The notes beneath the pieces are model-generated. The model searched no databases. It saw only the letters and a list, made by a program, of their open reading frames with translations, and was not told the origin of the DNA. A stretch of DNA of 10,810 nucleotides from Clostridia bacterium (GTDB lineage Bacteria; Bacillota; DSM-521; Neomoorellales; Neomoorellaceae): contig JASUSX010000043.1 in the NCBI GenBank assembly GCA_030445875.1, positions 1 through 10,810 on the forward strand, read 5' to 3'. A program made the position numbers and the translations under genes. Below, one piece after another: positions 3,281 to 10,810 of this stretch; position 1 is the stretch's first letter, and every line of letters begins with the position of its first letter.

Positions 3281-3309
3281 TTGACAATTTCTTAACATAT
3301 ATTATATGT
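3281..3309. promoter_or_regulatory. palindrome and TTnACA-type repeats over the phoU promoter
   Basis: Two signals overlap here. First, ACATATA-T-TATATGT (3295-3309) is a perfect 15-base inverted repeat covering the -10 box, a likely operator for a dimeric regulator. Second, on the plus strand TTGACA (3281-3286) and TTAACA (3292-3297) are repeated with an 11-base period, with a degenerate third copy TATATG at 3303-3308. That is the form of a Bacillus PhoP box (TT-A/C/T-ACA repeats). The boxes lie around the inferred start site, which would be unusual for activation and fits repression better. The regulator is not known. Confidence 0.4.
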
Positions 3310-3329
3310 CTATTACCCTGCGGGTTAAA
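3301..3329 (-). promoter_or_regulatory. candidate promoter of phoU and the phosphate transporter gene
   Basis: The minus strand has a perfect TATAAT (3301-3306), 17 bases after a weak -35, TTTAAC (3324-3329). Transcription would start near 3294, about 33 bases before the phoU ATG, leaving room for the ribosome site. The perfect -10 in an otherwise GC-rich genome is the main support; a weak -35 suits an activated promoter. Confidence 0.6.
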
Positions 3330-3397: not shown

Positions 3398-3928
3398 CTA
3401 CCGTAACCGGCCGGCAGGGGCCAGCACCCTGGCCTCAATCATATCCACCAGGCCGGCGGCGTCATCCAGGCCGTAGCAAGGGGCGTCTATGGCCAGGGGC
3501 TCGTCGGTGGCCACGGCCAGCAGTTCATCGGCGGTGCACAGGAGTTCGCCCCCGACGGCCGCCCGGTGGACCTCGATCTTGGGCTTATCGCCCCGCTTAT
3601 AGCCCTCGGTAATGATCAAGTCGACATTTTGCACGCGCCCGGCGATGGCGTCCAGGGGCAGCTCCATTTCTACCTTTTCGATAATCGCCATCTTGGTAGG
3701 CGAAGAGATGACGACAACGTCGGCCCCGGCCTCGGCGTGGCGCCAGGTGTCCTTGCCGGGGCGGTCGATGTCAAAGCCGTGGGTATCATGCTTGATGGTC
3801 GCCACCCGGTAACCACGCCGCTTTAATTCCGGCAGGAGCTTGACCAGCAAGGTCGTCTTCCCCACATCGGACTTGCCGACAACGGAGATGACGGGTGGCG
3901 GGGACAGTTTATCCTTTTCCTGGTTCAA
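3398..3928 (-). CDS. mobB: molybdopterin-guanine dinucleotide biosynthesis adapter, MobB
   Basis: Small GTP-binding P-loop protein that works with MobA and MoeA in making the dinucleotide form of the molybdenum or tungsten cofactor. Seen in 176 residues: a P-loop GKSDVGKT at 18-25, the family motif TIKHDTHGFDIDRPGKD around 45-60 with DTWRH after it, VVVISS at 71-76, and LIITEGYKRGDKPKIEV near 104-120. All are typical of MobB, and the length is usual (about 160-175). The start is TTG at 3928 because an AAAGGAGGTA ribosome site lies about eight bases before it and no nearer ATG exists. It begins 33 bases after moeA ends and is the last gene of the cofactor run; the next gene downstream, phoU, has its own promoter. 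No clear terminator is visible after its stop. Confidence 0.94.
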   Translation of the reverse strand: MNQEKDKLSPPPVISVVGKSDVGKTTLLVKLLPELKRRGYRVATIKHDTHGFDIDRPGKDTWRHAEAGADVVVISSPTKMAIIEKVEMELPLDAIAGRVQNVDLIITEGYKRGDKPKIEVHRAAVGGELLCTADELLAVATDEPLAIDAPCYGLDDAAGLVDMIEARVLAPAGRLR

Positions 3929-3961: not shown

Positions 3962-5260
3962 CTAAACCATAATTACCGTTACCTCCGCCCCGGCTGCCGG
4001 GGTGGTACCGGGGGGCAAATCAATTAAGGCATTGGCTCCTATAGCGGCACGGATGCCCCCCGGCCGGCGGGGCAGGGGCATTACCTGCCAGCCATGAGCC
4101 GTCGACTTGGCCCGGGCCCAGATGAAGGCCCGCTCCGGCCGCCGCCGGTCTATGGCCCGCGTCAGCCGCGCCGGGAAGGCCACCGGCAAGGGTTCTTTAC
4201 CTCCCAGGGCCAGGATAACTGGTGCCGCCAGGAGATAGTAAGCCACCAGGGCCGCCGGGGGGTTGCCGGGCAGGCCCAGCATTAATTTCCCATCCCACCG
4301 GGCCGCTATAACCCGCCGGGCCGGGCGGTTATTTAGCTCTGTAAAGAGCATTTTCCCCCCCGTCCGGGCAAAGGCGGCTGCTGTCAGGTCGTAATTACCA
4401 CCGCCGGCGCCGCCGGTAGTCAGGAGCAGGTCCGCCTCTCCCAGGGCCGCCCGGTAGGCCCTTACCTGTTCCTCCAGGTCGTCGGCCAGGGGACCCAGGG
4501 GGAGTACCTCGCCGCCGGCAGCCCCAACAGCCGCCGCCAGGGCATAAAAATTGCTGTTGTATATCCAGGGGGTACCTGCCCCGGGGCCGCCGGCCCGGCT
4601 GGCGTCGGCCGGGCCACGGCCGGCATTTCCCGCCTCCCCGGCGGCAGGGTCCAGGAGTTCACTGCCGCTGGCGGCCAGGGCTACCCGGGGCCGGCGGTAA
4701 ACCGTTACCTCCCGGATACCCAGGGCGGCCAGGAGGCCTGTTTCCGCCGGCCCCAGGGGTGTGCCGGCGGCCAGGACCCCTTCCCCGGCCGCCACTTCAG
4801 CTCCAGCGGCTTCCAGGTAACTCCGGGAAGGCAGGCCGGTAAGGCTGATATAGCCGTCCACCTCCGTCGCCATTTCCCTGGGTACAATGGCCACCGTCCC
4901 GGCCGGCGGCCTGGCGCCGGTAAAGATAGCCGCCGCCGTCCCCGCTGCCAGGGTCAGGTCGGGCTTCCTCCCGGCCGGCACCGCCCCCAGGAGGCGGTAG
5001 ACCGCCCTGGCTGGAGCCTCCCTACTGCCCGTACTTGTCCCGGAGCCCCGCAGTACCCTGGTCCCGGTTGCCGGCCCGGGCGGTCCTACGGCGTAGCCAT
5101 CCACCAGGGAACGGGGAAACGGGGGGAAAGGCCCCGGGGCAGTTACTGCCGCTGCCAGCACCTGCCCCGCCGCTTCCTCCAGCTTTACTTTAACCCTGCC
5201 GGGAGGTACCAGCCCGTCCAGCAGCAATTCCCGGGCCGCCTCCAGGGATAAAGGTGACAT
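3962..5260 (-). CDS. moeA: MoeA-family molybdopterin molybdotransferase (divergent active-site motifs)
   Basis: MoeA inserts molybdate (or tungstate) into adenylylated molybdopterin. Seen in 432 residues: SLVDGYAV at 51-58 (conserved Asp of the usual S-x-M/V-DGYA motif), IFTGARPP at 112-119, ASGSEL at 197-202, and LPGNPPAA at 330-337, in normal order. Differences from the family: the usual TGG-[VT]-S-x-GDYD loop reads TTGGAGGGNYDL (281-292), losing the Ser and the first Asp. The usual PGKP stretch before LPGNP is replaced by ELNNRPARR (308-316). A Gly/Ala-rich insertion of about 25 residues sits at 205-231. The start is ATG at 5260 after an AAAGGATGG ribosome site. It lies between mobA and mobB, so a role in cofactor assembly is secure, but metal choice and full activity are uncertain. 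The gene is extremely GC-rich (45 of 60 bases at 4621-4680). Confidence 0.9.
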   Translation of the reverse strand: MSPLSLEAARELLLDGLVPPGRVKVKLEEAAGQVLAAAVTAPGPFPPFPRSLVDGYAVGPPGPATGTRVLRGSGTSTGSREAPARAVYRLLGAVPAGRKPDLTLAAGTAAAIFTGARPPAGTVAIVPREMATEVDGYISLTGLPSRSYLEAAGAEVAAGEGVLAAGTPLGPAETGLLAALGIREVTVYRRPRVALAASGSELLDPAAGEAGNAGRGPADASRAGGPGAGTPWIYNSNFYALAAAVGAAGGEVLPLGPLADDLEEQVRAYRAALGEADLLLTTGGAGGGNYDLTAAAFARTGGKMLFTELNNRPARRVIAARWDGKLMLGLPGNPPAALVAYYLLAAPVILALGGKEPLPVAFPARLTRAIDRRRPERAFIWARAKSTAHGWQVMPLPRRPGGIRAAIGANALIDLPPGTTPAAGAEVTVIMV

Positions 5261-5335: not shown

Positions 5336-5929
5336 CTACTGTCCTGCCAGCAGGCGCCGTGCCCGATCCAGGTCGGCCGGGGTATTGATATTAAAAAACA
5401 CCCGCTCCAGGTCGGTAAAACCCTGGAGGCGGTCAATATCAATGTAACGCACCTTAACGTGCGGGTAAAAGGCGAAGGCCTGGTAGTCACCCTGCTGCAG
5501 ACAGGCTTCAATGGCTGGCAGGCAACTGCGGGAATAGACGGCGTGCAGGGGCTGCAGGTATTCACCCCGGCGGGGGACAACAGCGTCGTAGCCCCGGGCC
5601 TGTCCCAGGAGATGTTCAATAAAAGCCGGGTCCAGGAAAGGCATGTCGCAGGCGACAACAAAGTTGTGCCACCAGGGCGAAGCCAGCAGCCCAGCGTGGA
5701 AGCCACTCAAGGGCCCCCGGCCGGGGATGACATCCGTTACCAGGCGCACCTGCCAATCCCTGTACAGGTCGGGGGTGTTGGTTACAACGATTACCTCGGG
5801 AAATAATGGCCGCAAAGCCGCCACGATGGTGGCCAGCATCGACTCCCGCCCCAGGGGCAGCAGGGCTTTATTGGTACCCATACGGGTGCTTTTACCTCCG
5901 GCCAGGACGACCCCGGCTGCTTCATACAC
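5336..5929 (-). CDS. mobA: molybdenum cofactor guanylyltransferase, MobA
   Basis: Couples GMP from GTP to the metal-loaded pterin cofactor, forming the dinucleotide cofactor used by DMSO-reductase-family enzymes such as formate dehydrogenase. Seen in 197 residues: the nucleotidyltransferase signature LAGGKSTRMGTNKALL at 9-24, RGPLSGFHAGL near 71-81, the metal-binding ACDMPF at 93-98, a LQPLHAVYS stretch, and FFNINTPADL near the C-terminus. All fit MobA, and the length is usual. The start is GTG at 5929 preceded by CGGAGGCG with a slightly long spacer; no better start is visible. It follows the transporter ATPase gene by 84 bases without a credible promoter or terminator, so it probably belongs to the same transcript. 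Presence of mobA implies the host makes a guanine-dinucleotide cofactor. Confidence 0.95.
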   Translation of the reverse strand: MYEAAGVVLAGGKSTRMGTNKALLPLGRESMLATIVAALRPLFPEVIVVTNTPDLYRDWQVRLVTDVIPGRGPLSGFHAGLLASPWWHNFVVACDMPFLDPAFIEHLLGQARGYDAVVPRRGEYLQPLHAVYSRSCLPAIEACLQQGDYQAFAFYPHVKVRYIDIDRLQGFTDLERVFFNINTPADLDRARRLLAGQ

Positions 5930-6013
5930 TTCAGGTAGCGCCTCCGGTCAATTTAATCCCTTTTAGGATACCATAATTTTGCCCCCCGTCTCCAGGGCTT
6001 TTTTTTGATATGC

Positions 6014-7114
6014 TTACCCTTCTTCATTTGCTGGTAAGACCCAAAAAGAATCCTTTTTTAAGGATACAGTAACCTGTTCCCCCATTTTAAGCGCCATGTC
6101 ATGGTAAATATAGCCGGGGAGCTCCAGTTCGATCTTCATTCCTGTACCAGCAAGATCCAAAAATAGTAAATAACTGCCATACTGATCAAAAATACTCCGC
6201 ACCGTAGCAGGAAAAATATTTGACTGCACCCTTGGCGCAAGCGGACGGTCATGGCGGATAATAACCACTTCCCGGGGGTTAATACCAAAATGAATTTTAT
6301 CACCCAGGTACAAATTGGGAATTACCGGCAGCTGGAAAGTAAGTCCCTGGCTACTTTGGGCTATTATTTCAGTGGAAGAAATAGCATCTACCCTGCCACT
6401 GAACATATTACGGTTTAGCAATAATCTTGCTACTTCCAGGGTGGCTGGCCGGCGATAAATATCGTCCCGGCTGCCTATTTGTTGCAAGCGACCGTCAATT
6501 AAAACGGCAATTTTATCCCCCAGGAGAAAGGCTTCCTGGAGGTCATGAGTGACATGAATAACTGTCACCTTAAAACGGGTGAAAATCTCAGGCAGTAAAA
6601 AGATTAACTGCCTCCTGGTAAAACTATCCAAAGCCGAAAAAGGCTCATCCATCAGAATAATATCGGGTTCCACCAGCAGGGTCCTGGCCAGGGCTACCCG
6701 CTGTTTTTCGCCACCGCTTAAAGTTAGGGGATTAGAGCGGCTTAAAAGATGTTCAATGCCAAGGAAAGCCGCTAATTCCCTGGCCCGTTCCCTGGCCCGG
6801 GAGGGCGGAATGCGGTTGGGCCGGGCGCCAAAGGTGATGTTTTCCATGATGGAGAGGTGAGGAAATAGGGCCAGGTTCTGTTGGATATAACCAATTTTCC
6901 TCTCCTCTGGCAAAGCATAGGTGATATCCCGGCCGGCAAAGAGTATCCTGCCCTTCTGCGGTTTTTTCAGGCCAGCCAGAGTATCCAGCAGTACCGTCTT
7001 GCCGGCGCCGGATGGCCCCAAAACGATCAGGTATCCGGCTTTGCTTACGCTGAAGGAAATATCGTCCAGGTAAAACCCCGGGCCAGCTACGGTTAGATTT
7101 CTAACCTGGATCAC
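6014..7114 (-). CDS. modC: molybdate/tungstate ABC transporter, ATP-binding protein
   Basis: ATPase that powers oxyanion import on the cytoplasmic face of the membrane. Seen in 366 residues: Walker A GPSGAGKT at 33-40, Q-loop IQQNLALFPH near 77-86, ABC signature LSGGEKQ at 132-138, Walker B IILMDEP at 152-158, and the switch His at 190 (HVTHD). A beta-rich C-terminal part (about 230-366) includes one TOBE/MOP-like segment of the kind that binds molybdate in ModC. The start is GTG at 7114; it overlaps the permease stop by four bases (GTGA), a sign of translational coupling. Sequence alone does not separate ModC from WtpC, so the metal could be Mo, W or both. The gene is clearly more AT-rich than moeA (24 G/C in 60 bases at 6121-6180). 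Confidence 0.9.
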   Translation of the reverse strand: MIQVRNLTVAGPGFYLDDISFSVSKAGYLIVLGPSGAGKTVLLDTLAGLKKPQKGRILFAGRDITYALPEERKIGYIQQNLALFPHLSIMENITFGARPNRIPPSRARERARELAAFLGIEHLLSRSNPLTLSGGEKQRVALARTLLVEPDIILMDEPFSALDSFTRRQLIFLLPEIFTRFKVTVIHVTHDLQEAFLLGDKIAVLIDGRLQQIGSRDDIYRRPATLEVARLLLNRNMFSGRVDAISSTEIIAQSSQGLTFQLPVIPNLYLGDKIHFGINPREVVIIRHDRPLAPRVQSNIFPATVRSIFDQYGSYLLFLDLAGTGMKIELELPGYIYHDMALKMGEQVTVSLKKDSFWVLPANEEG

Positions 7115-7914
7115 TGGTACAGCGCCCCTTTATCCGTCAGCAAACGTAAAGCCAGGAGAATTAAAAATGCCAGCAAAACTATAATACTTACCAGGGCCAC
7201 CGCTTTTTCAATCCTTACAGAAGAGAGATTTAAATAAATGGCAATCGGCAAGGTCTCAGTTTTCATCCTGGTAGCACCTGCCAGGGTGACGGTGGCGCCA
7301 AACTCACCCAGGGCCCGGGCCCAGGAGAGAATAAAGGTGGCAATAATACCCGGCCTGGCCATAGGCAAGGTCACTCGCCAAAAGGCCCCGGCCTTGCTTT
7401 CCCCCAGGACCCGGGCCGCCATCTCGTAGGTCGGGTCAATGGCATCAAAGATAGATTTCATCAACCGGATGGCCAGAAAAACGACAATGGTAGCCTGCGC
7501 TACAATAATACCGGTCACGTTGAAAACTACCGGGAAAAAATGCTCCTGAAAAAGCAACCCCGGGGTTGTGTTAAAAAAAATTAGCAGCATTGCCCCCAGG
7601 GCGACCGGTGAGATGACCACTGGTAGATCCATAACGGTATCAATAACCGCCTTCGCCGGCACGCTGAAACGCGACAGGGCATAACCGGCGGGGATGCCAA
7701 TTAAAAGGGCCAGCGCAGCCACTACCAGGGCCGATTCTAAAGAGAGGGCCAGGGCAAAACGGACCTCTTTATCCTGAAGGCTGCTTACTAGTACATCCTT
7801 GTTTAAATAGCTCACCTGGGAGAATAGAAGCAGCAAGATATACATAAACACCATGGCAAGGAGGCCACTAAAGGCCACCGTAAAGGCCCTGGCAACAATC
7901 TTTTTCCGGCCCAC
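7111..7914 (-). CDS. modB: molybdate/tungstate ABC transporter, permease
   Basis: Membrane channel subunit of the oxyanion importer. Seen in 267 residues: about six transmembrane helices (near 12-32, 58-80, 95-115, 135-150, 187-205 and 238-258), and the EAA loop that docks on the ATPase (EMAARVLGESKAG at 164-176 followed by LPMARPGI at 183-190). After it comes SWARALGEFGATVTLAG, which is characteristic of the ModB/CysT branch. The start is GTG at 7914 with GAGGTGAGGGAG upstream. It begins 41 bases after the binding-protein gene and overlaps the ATPase gene by four bases. Membership of the sulfate/molybdate/tungstate permease branch is firm; the oxyanion identity rests on the cofactor genes and riboswitch around it. 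Confidence 0.92.
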   Translation of the reverse strand: MGRKKIVARAFTVAFSGLLAMVFMYILLLLFSQVSYLNKDVLVSSLQDKEVRFALALSLESALVVAALALLIGIPAGYALSRFSVPAKAVIDTVMDLPVVISPVALGAMLLIFFNTTPGLLFQEHFFPVVFNVTGIIVAQATIVVFLAIRLMKSIFDAIDPTYEMAARVLGESKAGAFWRVTLPMARPGIIATFILSWARALGEFGATVTLAGATRMKTETLPIAIYLNLSSVRIEKAVALVSIIVLLAFLILLALRLLTDKGALYQ

Positions 7915-7955: not shown

Positions 7956-8825
7956 TTACTGCCACTCTGCAGGTAACTGGTATTCACCGCCTACCGGAGC
8001 CCCCGGAGCAAATTTACGGGCTTCTTCAACGCTACCCAGGTAACCATATTTGCGAAAAACGCTTTTACCCTCTTCTGAGGTCAGAAAAGCCATAAATCGG
8101 GCGGCCAGCTCCTTTTGTTGGGAAAAATTAGAGATGGCTGCAGGAATATAACCTATACGGGTTATCTGTTCCGGTGGTAAATAGATAGTTTCAATTTTAG
8201 CCGGATCCCACTTTTGGAAGACATCCCAGCCCATGACGGCGTCAACTTGCTTCAGGGCTACCAGATTAGCCGTCTTTTCGCAGCTTTCCGCGTAAGTAAC
8301 AATATTCTTTTTAACCCTGTCAGCCAGCCCGGCTTTCTCGAGGATTTCTACTCCGTAAAGGCCTACGCAAACTGTCTCGGGACGCGCCAGGCCTACCCGC
8401 ACCCCTGGCCGGGCTAAATCGTTTAACGACTGGATTCCTTGCGGATTGCCCCTGGGTACATTAATTGCCGGTATAAGGTAAACCAGTATCTCTTCGGTTT
8501 TAGGGTCCACAACGCCATCTTTCTTGGCCATTTCCATGAAATCAGAAGAACCGGGGATGTAAATATCACCCTGGTGGGACAATTTCATCTGCGAAAGGAC
8601 GGCACCCGAACCGCCGAAGGTAAGGTTTACTTTAACGCCGGTCTTCTGCATAAAAAGGGTAGCAATTTCCTCCAGGGGAGGTTTACTGGCGGCCCCGGCA
8701 AAAACCTGTAGTTCTTTAGTTTCCCCCTGCCTGGCCGGAGTTACACTTTCTTTTGAAGAGGTACAACCAGCTAAAAAAAGAACTACAAGCATAGTAATGG
8801 CTACCATTTTCAATGTTTTTCCCAA
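7956..8825 (-). CDS. modA: molybdate/tungstate-binding lipoprotein (ModA-like)
   Basis: Extracytoplasmic receptor that hands oxyanion to the permease. Seen in 289 residues: a short signal peptide ending in the lipobox LAGC, so Cys21 would be lipidated and anchor the protein outside the membrane, as usual in Gram-positive bacteria. The mature part has the ModA-type fold markers VFAGAAS (41-47), FGGSGAVLSQ (70-79; Ser73 matches the second Ser that holds the anion), GDIYIPGSSDF (86-95) and GWDV (199-202). The usual PxxxPAGxY segment reads RPETVCVGLYG, with a Cys. The TTTS motif of the tungstate receptor TupA is absent. The start is TTG at 8825 with AGGAGG at 8836-8841, ten bases away; an in-frame ATG seven codons later is possible but lies too far from that site. 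It is the first gene after the riboswitch terminator. Confidence 0.88.
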   Translation of the reverse strand: MGKTLKMVAITMLVVLFLAGCTSSKESVTPARQGETKELQVFAGAASKPPLEEIATLFMQKTGVKVNLTFGGSGAVLSQMKLSHQGDIYIPGSSDFMEMAKKDGVVDPKTEEILVYLIPAINVPRGNPQGIQSLNDLARPGVRVGLARPETVCVGLYGVEILEKAGLADRVKKNIVTYAESCEKTANLVALKQVDAVMGWDVFQKWDPAKIETIYLPPEQITRIGYIPAAISNFSQQKELAARFMAFLTSEEGKSVFRKYGYLGSVEEARKFAPGAPVGGEYQLPAEWQ

Positions 8826-8870
8826 GGCTAATCAACCTCCTGCAGTATTGTCGGGACTAAAGGCCCTACA

Positions 8871-8914
8871 TAATAATAAATAAAAGCCCCGGCTCGCAAA
8901 GGATACCGGGGCTT
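8871..8914 (-). terminator. intrinsic terminator in the transporter leader (riboswitch expression platform)
   Basis: On the minus strand a nine-pair stem (AAGCCCCGG at 8906-8914 with CCGGGGCTT at 8884-8892) with a 13-base loop is followed by TTTTATTTATTATTA. It lies between the riboswitch aptamer and the ribosome site of the binding-protein gene, the usual place for a transcription-attenuating platform. No gene ends just before it, so its purpose must be leader control. Two G-rich segments in the aptamer (8982-8987 and 9011-9016) could pair with its 5' arm and act as antiterminator. Confidence 0.85.
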
Positions 8915-8938
8915 CCACGCCGAAGACCACAGCAGGTA

Positions 8939-9052
8939 ATCTCCTTTCCGAGCACAGGGAGGCAGGCCCGTTTCCCGGCCTACCCCGTGGGTGTAACCAC
9001 CCAGGCCAGCGCCCCATAGGCCACAGCCCTTAGGGAACACCGGCTCGGAGAT
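8939..9052 (-). ncRNA. Moco-family riboswitch aptamer (molybdenum or tungsten cofactor)
   Basis: Leader element known to sense the molybdenum (or tungsten) cofactor in front of moa, moe, mod and related genes. Seen on the minus strand: AUCUC (9048-9052) pairs with GAGAU (8939-8943), then CGAGC (9043-9047) pairs with GCUCG (8949-8953). A five-base GAAAG bulge on the 3' side produces the hallmark CUCGGAAAGGAG. Just before it is GCCUCCC (8957-8963), the conserved segment also present in the E. coli moaA leader (GCCUCCC...GGAAAGG). Inside are a GGGUG/CACCC hairpin closed by a GUUA loop (8989-9002) and a short GGCC-rich hairpin. A strong promoter lies upstream, a terminator downstream, then the transporter genes. 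Which cofactor it recognises cannot be read from the sequence by eye. Recognition rests on recalled consensus, not a covariance search. Confidence 0.85.
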
Positions 9053-9073
9053 GATATTTAATTTTACTTCATC

Positions 9074-9102
9074 ATCATAACCTTTTCGAGCCCTACCGTC
9101 AA
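9074..9102 (-). promoter_or_regulatory. strong sigma-A promoter of the riboswitch-transporter-cofactor operon
   Basis: On the minus strand TTGACG (9097-9102, five of six) and TATGAT (9074-9079, five of six) are separated by exactly 17 bases. The inferred start near 9067 lies about 15 bases before the riboswitch aptamer. The TGA stop codon of the regulator gene (9099-9101) is inside the -35 box. A near-consensus promoter fits control by a downstream riboswitch rather than by an activator. Confidence 0.75.
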
Positions 9103-10004
9103 TATCCAGGCGGGTGGGGTGGATGTTTTTCCAGAAACCCGGTAAAGGCCTCAGCAGCCGGGCTTAAAGGTTGGCGGCGCCGCACCAGGTAGAGGTCGCG
9201 CTTCAGGTTGACCCCCAGGAGGGGGACGATAACCAGGCGGCCCAGCTTCACGCTCTTTTCCACCGCCCAGCAGGTGACCAGGGAGATGCCCAGGCCGGCC
9301 TCGACGGCGCTGACAATGGCCTCGGTGCTGCCCAGCTCCATAACCACCTGGCCCGGGTCAACGGTAAAGCCGGCCTTCTGCAGGCGTTCCTCCACCACCC
9401 GGCGGGTACCGGAACCGGCTTCCCGCCAGACCAGGGGTTCGTCCTTTAGATCGGCCGGGGTTGCTGCTGATGCCCCGGCCAGGTGGTGCCCGGGCTGGAC
9501 AATGAGGACCAGTTCATCCTCGACCAGGCGGCTATAGGAGAGGCTGCGGCCCCGTCCCCCGGCGCCGACCACCCCTAGGTCAATCTCCCCCTCCTGCAGG
9601 CGGCGGATAACCTCCTGGGTGTCAGCAATCTCCACCACCACCTCTACCCGGGGGTATTCCCGCCGGAAACTACCAACCATCCGGGGCAGAATATACTGGC
9701 CCGGGGTGGTGCTGGCCCCCAGCAAGAGCCGGCCCTTCACCAACCGGGTCAGTTCCGCCAGCTCCCGCTGGGTCTGTTCCAGGTGCCGGGCAATAGCCCG
9801 GGCGTGCTGGTAACATATCTCCCCAGCCCCCGTAAGCCGCACCTCACGGCCACGGCGTTCCAGCAAGCGCACGCCGTAGTAGTCCTCCAGGGCCTGGAGC
9901 TGCTTACTTACCCCCGGCTGGGTGAGATGCAACTCCTCCGCCGCCGCCGACAAGGTACCCTTTTCCACCGTGGTAATAAAGGTTAACCAGTAATTAAGGT
10001 TCAT
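9099..10004 (-). CDS. LysR-type transcriptional regulator
   Basis: DNA-binding regulator with an N-terminal winged helix-turn-helix and a C-terminal periplasmic-binding-protein-like effector domain. Seen in 301 residues: the HTH at about 18-40 (TLSAAAEELHLTQPGVSKQLQ), LLERRGREVRLTGAG as the wing region, then RLLLGASTTPGQYILPRMVGSF opening the effector domain at about 90. WREAGSGTRRVVEERL and GSTEAIVSAVEAGLGISLV follow later. These resemble the CysL/CysB branch that often senses small oxyanions or sulfur compounds. The start is ATG at 10004, giving the standard LysR beginning; a longer reading would overlap the divergent ldh. It is divergent from ldh (67-base gap) and directly upstream of the transporter operon with no terminator between, so its targets could be either. 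Effector unknown. Confidence 0.9.
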   Translation of the reverse strand: MNLNYWLTFITTVEKGTLSAAAEELHLTQPGVSKQLQALEDYYGVRLLERRGREVRLTGAGEICYQHARAIARHLEQTQRELAELTRLVKGRLLLGASTTPGQYILPRMVGSFRREYPRVEVVVEIADTQEVIRRLQEGEIDLGVVGAGGRGRSLSYSRLVEDELVLIVQPGHHLAGASAATPADLKDEPLVWREAGSGTRRVVEERLQKAGFTVDPGQVVMELGSTEAIVSAVEAGLGISLVTCWAVEKSVKLGRLVIVPLLGVNLKRDLYLVRRRQPLSPAAEAFTGFLEKHPPHPPGY

Positions 10005-10071
10005 AAGTCGTGACTCGATCCCCCGTATAACCTTCCTGGCTCCAACAGACACTAAGCCTCGAGGTGATCCT
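10005..10071. promoter_or_regulatory. divergent regulator/ldh intergenic region
   Basis: The 67 bases must hold the upstream signals of both divergent genes, which is the usual setting for a LysR operator and autoregulation. A TATAAC (10026-10031, plus strand; TTATAC on the minus strand at 10027-10032) could serve as -10 in either direction, but no convincing -35 pairs with it. The GAGGTGAT ribosome site of ldh is at its right end. No clear LysR T-N11-A dyad could be singled out by eye. Confidence 0.4.
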
Positions 10072-10810
10072 ATGCCCCTCCAGGCACCTGTCAGGGTGGC
10101 CATTATCGGCACCGGCTATGTCGGCGCCAGTACCGCCTTTGCCCTGCTCTTCAGCCCCATCGTCAAAGAACTGGTCCTGGTAGACATCGACCACAAGCGG
10201 GCCGAAGGGGAGGCCATGGACCTTGCCCACGCGGCCACTTTAATCCGGCCCGTCAAGATCCAGGCCGGCGGCCCGGCCGACTGCGCCGGCGCCCGGATCA
10301 TCATTTTCACCGCCGGGGCCAACCAGCAACCGGGTGAAACCCGTCTGGACCTGGTGCACCGCAATACCGCCATTCTCCGGGAGGCCCTGCCGCCCCTGCT
10401 GCGCCATTGCCCCGACGCCTTGATCCTCATGGTAGCCAACCCGGTCGATATCCTGACCTATACAGCCTGGAAGCTTTCTGGACTACCGGAAAACAGGGTC
10501 CTGGGGTCCGGCACCGTTCTGGACAGCGCCCGTTTCCGCCACCTCTTGAGCCGCCGCCTCCACGTTGACCCCCGCAATATCCACGCCTATGTAATCGGCG
10601 AACACGGCGATACCGAGGTACCGGTCTGGAGCCTGGCCAACGTGGCCGGGGTTGGCCTGGAAGAGTTCTACCGCCTGGACGGCACCACCGAGGAGGAAGC
10701 CTCCCGGAACGAAATAAGCCGCCAGGTACGGGAGGCCGCCTATGAGATAATCAAACGGAAAGGCGCTACCTCCTATGGTGTGGCCCTGGCCTTTAGCCGC
10801 ATTACCGAAA
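10072..10810 (+). CDS. ldh: L-lactate dehydrogenase, 3' end cut by window
   Basis: NAD-dependent interconversion of pyruvate and L-lactate in the cytoplasm. Seen in 246 codons: the nucleotide loop GTGYVG (13-18), VLVDID with the ribose-binding Asp38, the mobile loop AGANQQPGETRLDLV with Gln85 (position of LDH Gln102, where malate dehydrogenases carry Arg) and Arg91 (Arg109). VANPVDILTY (121-130), LDSARFR with Asp151 and Arg154 (Asp168/Arg171) and GEHGDTEVPVWS with catalytic His178 (His195) follow; the spacing Arg154-His178 matches the family. A full enzyme is about 315 residues, so roughly 70 are outside the window. The start is ATG at 10072 with a good GAGGTGAT ribosome site. Substrate call as lactate rather than malate rests on Gln85. 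It is the only plus-strand gene and is divergent from a LysR regulator. Confidence 0.96.
   Translation, partial: MPLQAPVRVAIIGTGYVGASTAFALLFSPIVKELVLVDIDHKRAEGEAMDLAHAATLIRPVKIQAGGPADCAGARIIIFTAGANQQPGETRLDLVHRNTAILREALPPLLRHCPDALILMVANPVDILTYTAWKLSGLPENRVLGSGTVLDSARFRHLLSRRLHVDPRNIHAYVIGEHGDTEVPVWSLANVAGVGLEEFYRLDGTTEEEASRNEISRQVREAAYEIIKRKGATSYGVALAFSRITE

Follow-up and report, generated by a model that had tools for sequence, protein, structure and literature searches.

A Moco riboswitch with a proposed strand-exchange antiterminator upstream of transporter and cofactor genes in Moorella

The gene cluster and its leader

The window, by which we mean the whole 10,810-nucleotide stretch of DNA that was analysed, comes from a Moorella genome, a draft of 1.57 Mb in 163 contigs that is 59% complete. 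Six genes lie behind a leader on the minus strand in the order modA, modB, modC, mobA, moeA and mobB. The gaps between them, taking the first start codon of each ORF, are 41, -4, 84, 75 and 33 bases. The genes are as follows.

7956..8825, minus strand: modA-like, substrate-binding component (type 1 in what follows), starting with TTG; TIGR01256 at 90.9 bits against a cut-off of 62.5; SBP_bac_11
7111..7914, minus strand: modB-like permease; Pfam BPD_transp_1 above gathering, best NCBIfam models below their cut-offs
6014..7114, minus strand: modC/wtpC-like ATPase; Pfam ABC_tran above gathering, best NCBIfam models below cut-off
5336..5929, minus strand: mobA (MGD synthesis); Pfam NTP_transf_3 above gathering, MobA models below cut-off
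3962..5260, minus strand: moeA (molybdenum insertion); Pfam MoeA_N, MoCF_biosynth and MoeA_C above gathering, NCBIfam models below cut-off
3398..3928, minus strand: mobB (adaptor); TIGR00176 at 150.2 bits against a cut-off of 76.2

In addition, the top solved-structure match of the modA-like protein was a molybdate-binding protein chain (E 3.3e-15). The transporter is predicted to carry molybdate or tungstate, and the choice stays two-way because the NCBIfam models for the permease, the ATPase, MobA and MoeA all score below their cut-offs. A gene for a LysR-type regulator (9099-10112, minus strand) lies directly upstream; it passes the NCBIfam model of a selenium-metabolism-associated LysR protein (267 bits, cut-off 250), and lysR and the riboswitch are neighbours at all 10 Moorella loci. 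At the other end, a promoter-like TTAACC-16-TATAAT (3301-3328, minus strand) lies between mobB and phoU and may split the phosphate genes from the operon.

The leader contains the following elements.

9074..9102, minus strand: sigma-70-like promoter; -35 TTGACG at 9097-9102, 17-base spacer, -10 TATGAT at 9074-9079
8925..9062, minus strand: Moco RNA aptamer RF01055 with P3 present; 83.2 bits, E 1.8e-19, model positions 1-135 of 135
9047..9052, minus strand: 5′ strand of P1, AUCUCC (RF01055 alignment)
8939..8944, minus strand: 3′ strand of P1, GGAGAU (RF01055 alignment)
8884..8914, minus strand: predicted terminator hairpin AAGCCCCGG[UAUCCUUUGCGAG]CCGGGGCUU (sequence, our own terminator scan, leader alignment)
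8869..8885, minus strand: U-rich tract overlapping the end of the terminator stem and continuing beyond it (sequence)

The earlier note had read from the letters a near-consensus promoter, a Moco-type aptamer, a terminator with a run of uridines and, behind them on one strand, modABC-mobA-moeA-mobB, and our analysis found all of these in place. The promoter-like site has 10 of 12 consensus matches and is one of 10 such sites in the window, where 4.3 (sd 2.3) were expected. Across 12 aligned leaders, five of the six columns of its -35 and four of the six of its -10 are invariant, and the -35 overlaps the end of the lysR gene.

The riboswitch is a real member of RF01055. The cmscan search of the whole window against Rfam gave this minus-strand, full-length match, far above the gathering score of 36, as the sole match at E<=1, and the genomic context, molybdenum transport and Moco synthesis genes, agrees with the family. 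Furthermore, the RF01055 alignment shows by eye a GAAA tetraloop (GNRA, on P4) within GGGAAACGG, and CCUAAG...UAUGG in P2 looks by eye like what we take to be its receptor. P3 is formed by UGGGUG pairing with CACCCA, and the P3 helix was drawn in the predicted folds of 12 of 12 leaders. The hairpin behind the aptamer resembles an intrinsic terminator, with a predicted stem of nine pairs, a 13-base loop and a U-rich tail running to about 8869. It is absent from the terminator list of the program, whose scanner has a loop limit of 8.

A candidate antiterminator in the leader

We compared 12 orthologous leaders from three genera. For instance, the same leader was found in Moorella stamsii (G002), M. 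mulderi (G003), M. sulfitireducens (G004) and M. thermoacetica DSM 21394 (G006). Two strands in these leaders can pair with each other.

8942..8953, minus strand: candidate antiterminator upstream strand GCUCGGAAAGGA, the 3′ strand of the aptamer itself, overlapping P1
8892..8903, minus strand: candidate antiterminator downstream strand UCCUUUGCGAGC, made up of the terminator loop and the base that opens the 3′ arm; no differences among the 12 leaders

The letters of GCUCGGAAAGGA are the same in 11 of the 12 leaders, and in the remaining one (G009) the first G is replaced by A. Meanwhile, the terminator loop UCCUUUGCGAG (8893-8903) is identical in all 12 leaders and all three genera. Of the 12 columns of AUCCUUUGCGAG, 11 are invariant; the 29-column spacer that separates aptamer from terminator has one such column, and the 60 bases past the terminator have two. 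We would not expect a terminator loop to be so strongly kept unless it had a second role. Because the loop would pair with the nearly invariant core of the aptamer, it offers no room for covariation.

Between GCUCGGAAAGGA and the loop with its next base, 11 Watson-Crick pairs and one G.G mismatch can form (10 pairs in G009), and CCC (8957-8959) can extend this antiterminator by pairing with GGGG of the terminator 3′ arm. The duplex energy in the window was -27.6 kcal/mol, and none of 200 dinucleotide shuffles was as good. The other 11 leaders had 0-9 of 200 shuffles as good, except L042 with 48 of 200; support was also weaker in L032 and L034, with 9 of 200 each. In addition, the pattern CGGAAAGGAG-gap-TCCTTTNCGAG occurred once per genome in 12 of 61 genomes, and the reversed-pattern control was never found in these 61. 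A search of named genomes with the loop pattern gave 10 matches, four of them in Moorella, and the remaining six may be due to chance. Sequence, conservation and predicted energy all point to an antiterminator that would use aptamer bases and exclude the terminator.

We consider it probable that the leader is a Moco-sensing transcriptional OFF riboswitch working by strand exchange. Anatomy, conservation and energies were computed, and for ligand binding, termination, direction and transcript extent we infer the following. The leader transcript would begin just ahead of the aptamer. Without cofactor, GCUCGGAAAGGA (8942-8953) would be unoccupied as the loop UCCUUUGCGAG (8893-8903) leaves RNA polymerase; the free strand would capture the loop and the start of the 3′ arm, the terminator would be blocked and the transporter genes would be transcribed. 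With cofactor bound, the aptamer would be stabilised, and P1 (AUCUCC:GGAGAU) and the core would retain the GCUCGGAAAGGA strand. The loop would then be free, so that the CCCCGG:CCGGGG stem could close ahead of the U tract and stop transcription before modA. Since the operon is predicted to import molybdate (or tungstate) and encodes MoeA, MobA and MobB, the end product would limit its own supply. A second promoter-like site, TTGCGA-18-TATTAT (8899-8870, minus strand, 9 of 12 matches), spans the terminator, and its use, if any, would bypass the leader; most relatives, judged by eye, do not conserve its -10.

Predicted folds were calculated with a model that has no ligand and no tertiary contacts, forcing either P1 and the terminator (fold A) or the antiterminator (fold B). 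The two were nearly equal in the window (A -93.0, B -93.9 kcal/mol), and B minus A lay within 3 kcal/mol, between -2.6 and +2.8, in 10 of the 12 leaders. The antiterminator was favoured by 7-8 kcal/mol in G005 (-8.3) and G006 (-7.1). When the leaders were folded without constraint to 110 bases past the aptamer, inspection by eye showed the terminator in the window and L040 and the antiterminator in the other 10. We also scanned four leaders at equilibrium by transcript length. Once the loop and the first bases of the 3′ arm were out, the probability of the antiterminator pair was 0.97-1.00 and that of the terminator still 0.00. At full length, the terminator reached 0.98 in the window, 0.99 in L078 and, partly, 0.69 in L033, and L034 (G006) remained antiterminated. 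P1 was merely 0.08 in the window at full length without ligand while the terminator was at 0.98, so the modelled terminator there needs no P1, and P1 and the terminator are not seen rising together in the window model.

Genes behind the riboswitch in related genomes

RF01055 was present in 41 of 61 genomes, that of the window included. In 10 of the 11 genomes of the genus, the gene order is lysR-riboswitch-transporter-mobA-moeA-mobB-phoU-nptA; the flanking genes are 76-91% identical to those of the window, and MoeA is 56-71% identical. The transporter is of two types. Type 1, with a ModA 75-92% identical to that of the window, occurs in the window and six others. Type 2, found in G005, G006 and G009 (L032, L034 and L042), has a ModA about 30% identical to that of the window and 84-90% to that of G006. 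These three loci keep the same riboswitch, lysR, moeA, mobB and phoU despite their distant ModABC; the reading frames picked for the permeases at L034 and L042 overlap. Both types together, as close matches, were found in none of the 11 genomes, two of which are incomplete (59% and 84%). In G005 (L032), mobA shows an internal deletion about 3146-3397 bases past the aptamer, where query residues 58-136 are missing between two abutting matches.

Two neighbouring genera (G016 and G017) also have the riboswitch and a type-1 transporter, with ModA 71 and 68% identical, and no match to mobA, moeA or mobB was found in the 8 kb behind their riboswitch. Meanwhile, the draft genome G007 has neither transporter type as a close match. 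Its contig (L170, G007:C33) carries lysR, a stretch ending in 26 codons, mobA, moeA (in two matched pieces) and mobB, and the 26 codons look like the tail of a type-2 modC. RF01055 was not found on this contig at E<=1 nor elsewhere in the genome at E<=0.001. The arrangement is possibly a misassembly.

A similar trace may lie in the window itself.

5965..6010, minus strand: probable decayed 3′ remnant of a type-2 modC, lying in the gap between modC and mobA; matches the scar of G007 with a DNA score of 44, a value that none of 300 shuffles reached

One frame of this 84-base gap reads YQKKALETGGKIMVS*, beside YQRENLAPGDRIMVSLKK... in the G007 scar and YQREKITPGDRIMVSLKK... in the type-2 modC of G006. 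The link of the remnant to type-2 modC runs through G007, because direct comparison with the intact tails gave weaker matches, equalled or exceeded by 7 (G006), 18 (G005) and 26 (G009) of 300 shuffles. As judged from these remains, the locus of the window likely once held the other, type-2, transporter too. If the two had stood in tandem and one of them had later been lost in each lineage, this would explain why the types exclude each other, and the transporter slot behind the riboswitch seems to have turned over. Trees disagree on the placement of the window's genome and G007, with uneven support. Another group of Moorella Moco RNAs (L036, L039, L043-L045, L047 and L052) precedes a third ModABC-like transporter, whose ModA is 33-36% identical to that of the window; at L039 a 242-residue ORF with no NCBIfam match at E<=1e-30 lies first, before this transporter.

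The simplest reading for the window, and a plausible one, is a single transcript over all six genes. We regard as possible, without favouring it, that the riboswitch mainly controls the transporter and that mobA-moeA-mobB are transcribed largely from their own promoter, so that uptake and assembly would have no common sensor. This would be compatible with strand exchange, and is likelier in the six relatives where a promoter-like site with a perfect TATAAT precedes mobA (6 of 10 Moorella loci: G001, G004, G005, G006, G009 and G010). At five of the nine mobA loci scanned alike, 1-30 of 500 shuffles were as good; G005 was scanned over a longer stretch, without shuffles. The window has a promoter-like site inside modC (6321-6294, minus strand, 9 of 12 matches), but the scan of the 130 bases preceding mobA found none in the window itself or in G002, G003 and G008. 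Furthermore, the riboswitch, transporter, mobA, moeA and mobB keep their order in 10 of 11 genomes of the genus, and the terminator-like sites between modA and mobB on this strand all lie inside genes except one, a 5-pair stem in the mobA-moeA gap, which argues for a common transcript. That gap carries a sizeable hairpin without a T run. G007 points the other way, with lysR, mobA, moeA, mobB and phoU present and neither riboswitch nor transporter at the locus. If this arrangement is real, it suggests that the transporter is the main client of the switch, with species differing in how the assembly genes are controlled.

Other switch models and other Moco RNAs

To see how the aptamer 3′ strand behaves in other Moco RNAs, we compared its pairing with its own and with foreign terminators. 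A usable terminator was present in 93 of 113 Moco RNAs, which formed 55 clusters by terminator identity; some clusters share a genus, so they are not fully independent. The 3′ strand preferred its own terminator (fraction above 0.5) in 41 of the 55 clusters, with a mean fraction of 0.68 (p 8e-5), and 14 clusters did not favour their own. The cluster of the window scored 1.00. When the segment was slid along the aptamer, three windows at the 3′ strand gave 0.68, 0.71 and 0.65 (nominal p 8e-5, 3e-6 and 1e-4), and eight further upstream gave 0.48-0.57 (nominal p 0.042-0.71); these windows lie at a fixed distance from the 3′ strand and so are shifted in RNAs without P3. The segments were anchored on the first AAGG, which takes the wrong hairpin in a few RNAs (by eye, for example L043 and L054).

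By eye, the partner of the 3′ strand varies by lineage: loop and 3′ arm in the operon of the window, 5′ arm and loop elsewhere. We lean towards the view that a strand-exchange platform is common to the Moco riboswitches of this phylum: the terminator loop would partially copy the aptamer 5′ strand, and the 3′ strand of the ligand core would choose between that copy and the original. The terminator arms would often also carry part of this copy, and from one lineage to another terminator loop and aptamer 3′ strand seem to have changed in step. In the window, the partial copy is AUCC-UUUG-CGAGCCGG beside the aptamer's AUCUCCGAGCCGG. If this is true, the platform would be readable from sequence for many Moco RNAs.

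The earlier note had proposed a different OFF switch: while no ligand is bound, the terminator 5′ arm GCCCCG (8907-8912) would be paired with one of two aptamer segments, CGGGGU (8982-8987) or UGGGGC (9011-9016). Both six-pair complementarities exist, each with one G-U, and the OFF logic is plausible, but energy and pairing across the family speak against these segments as the antiterminator, and we think this model very unlikely. The CGGGGU:GCCCCG pairing, counting G-U, is possible in 12 of 12 leaders; however, CGGGGU is part of the conserved aptamer, and this alone can account for its being conserved. UGGGGC makes six pairs in the window alone, with three to five for the equivalent segment in the other 11 leaders. 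Relative to the better of folds A and B, forcing CGGGGU costs 10.9-21.5 kcal/mol (the forced fold of the window has an energy of -79.1 kcal/mol) and forcing UGGGGC 17.9-31.2 kcal/mol, so that the cost over 12 of 12 leaders spans 11-31 kcal/mol. Segments over both stretches score 0.64-0.96 in the window's own cluster, where upstream segments are also above half (0.70-0.89) because the terminator arm is C-rich and the aptamer G-rich; over all 55 clusters, the four windows covering them average 0.50-0.56 (nominal p 0.043-0.46). The forced-fold energies and the own-versus-foreign pairing led us to reject CGGGGU and UGGGGC as antiterminator strands. Also very unlikely is a transcriptional ON switch in which ligand favours the antiterminator: the near-equal energies of the two folds would in principle let either be the bound form, but the antiterminator occupies the P1 3′ strand, which is incompatible with the RF01055 aptamer fold, and an OFF response would be expected of genes that supply the pathway.

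The main gain of the strand-exchange reading is a detailed, testable model of how the switch would flip, different from that of the earlier note. The instability of the molybdenum cofactor stands in the way of a simple assay of direct binding. A terminator-type Moco riboswitch with a defined antiterminator, in a genus with cultured members, would offer termination as a simple read-out. In addition, the natural variants, with the same riboswitch before two distant transporters and a relative without both, allow comparison of what the switch is kept for.

The aptamer class, the gene context and terminator-type examples were already known, and the strand-exchange pairing was worked out here. The leader resembles the RF01055 motif in its full-length match, P3, GAAA tetraloop and downstream modABC and Moco genes. 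The accessible text of PMC2408646 reports Moco RNAs before modABC and Moco synthesis genes, some Moco RNAs that precede intrinsic terminators and a Moco RNA in Moorella thermoacetica, and there Regulski et al. 2008 linked the presence of P3 to Moco rather than Tuco. Unlike for the window, no antiterminator is given there for the terminator-type RNAs, and the word 'antiterminator' has 0 occurrences in the main text. Nor is one described for Moco RNAs in the accessible text of PMC2408646, PMC12121620, PMC2700814, PMC9943018, PMC9495176, PMC10845959 and PMC6239172, a search that mostly leaves subscription journals aside.

The same genome has a second Moco RNA (G000:C54:7352-7493; L002, L055), with an RF01055 score of 73.1 bits over all 135 positions and a terminator behind it. 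Unlike that of the window, it is followed by what looks by eye like a short ORF and by a moeA-like gene (33%), and its terminator differs (AACTTCAGGCACCC[CATCC]GGGTGCCTGAAGTT). Its aptamer strand CCCGGAAUGGG can pair with its own terminator, no better than chance (46 of 200 shuffles as good).

Finally, the moaA riboswitch of E. coli belongs to the same aptamer class and shows an OFF response to Moco. According to the accessible text, its design is translational, with P1 itself holding the ribosome-binding site (PMC2408646), and RNA-seq evidence indicates that it also modulates termination (PMC12121620). In contrast to the ribosome-binding site within P1 of moaA, the leader of the window has a predicted terminator behind the aptamer.
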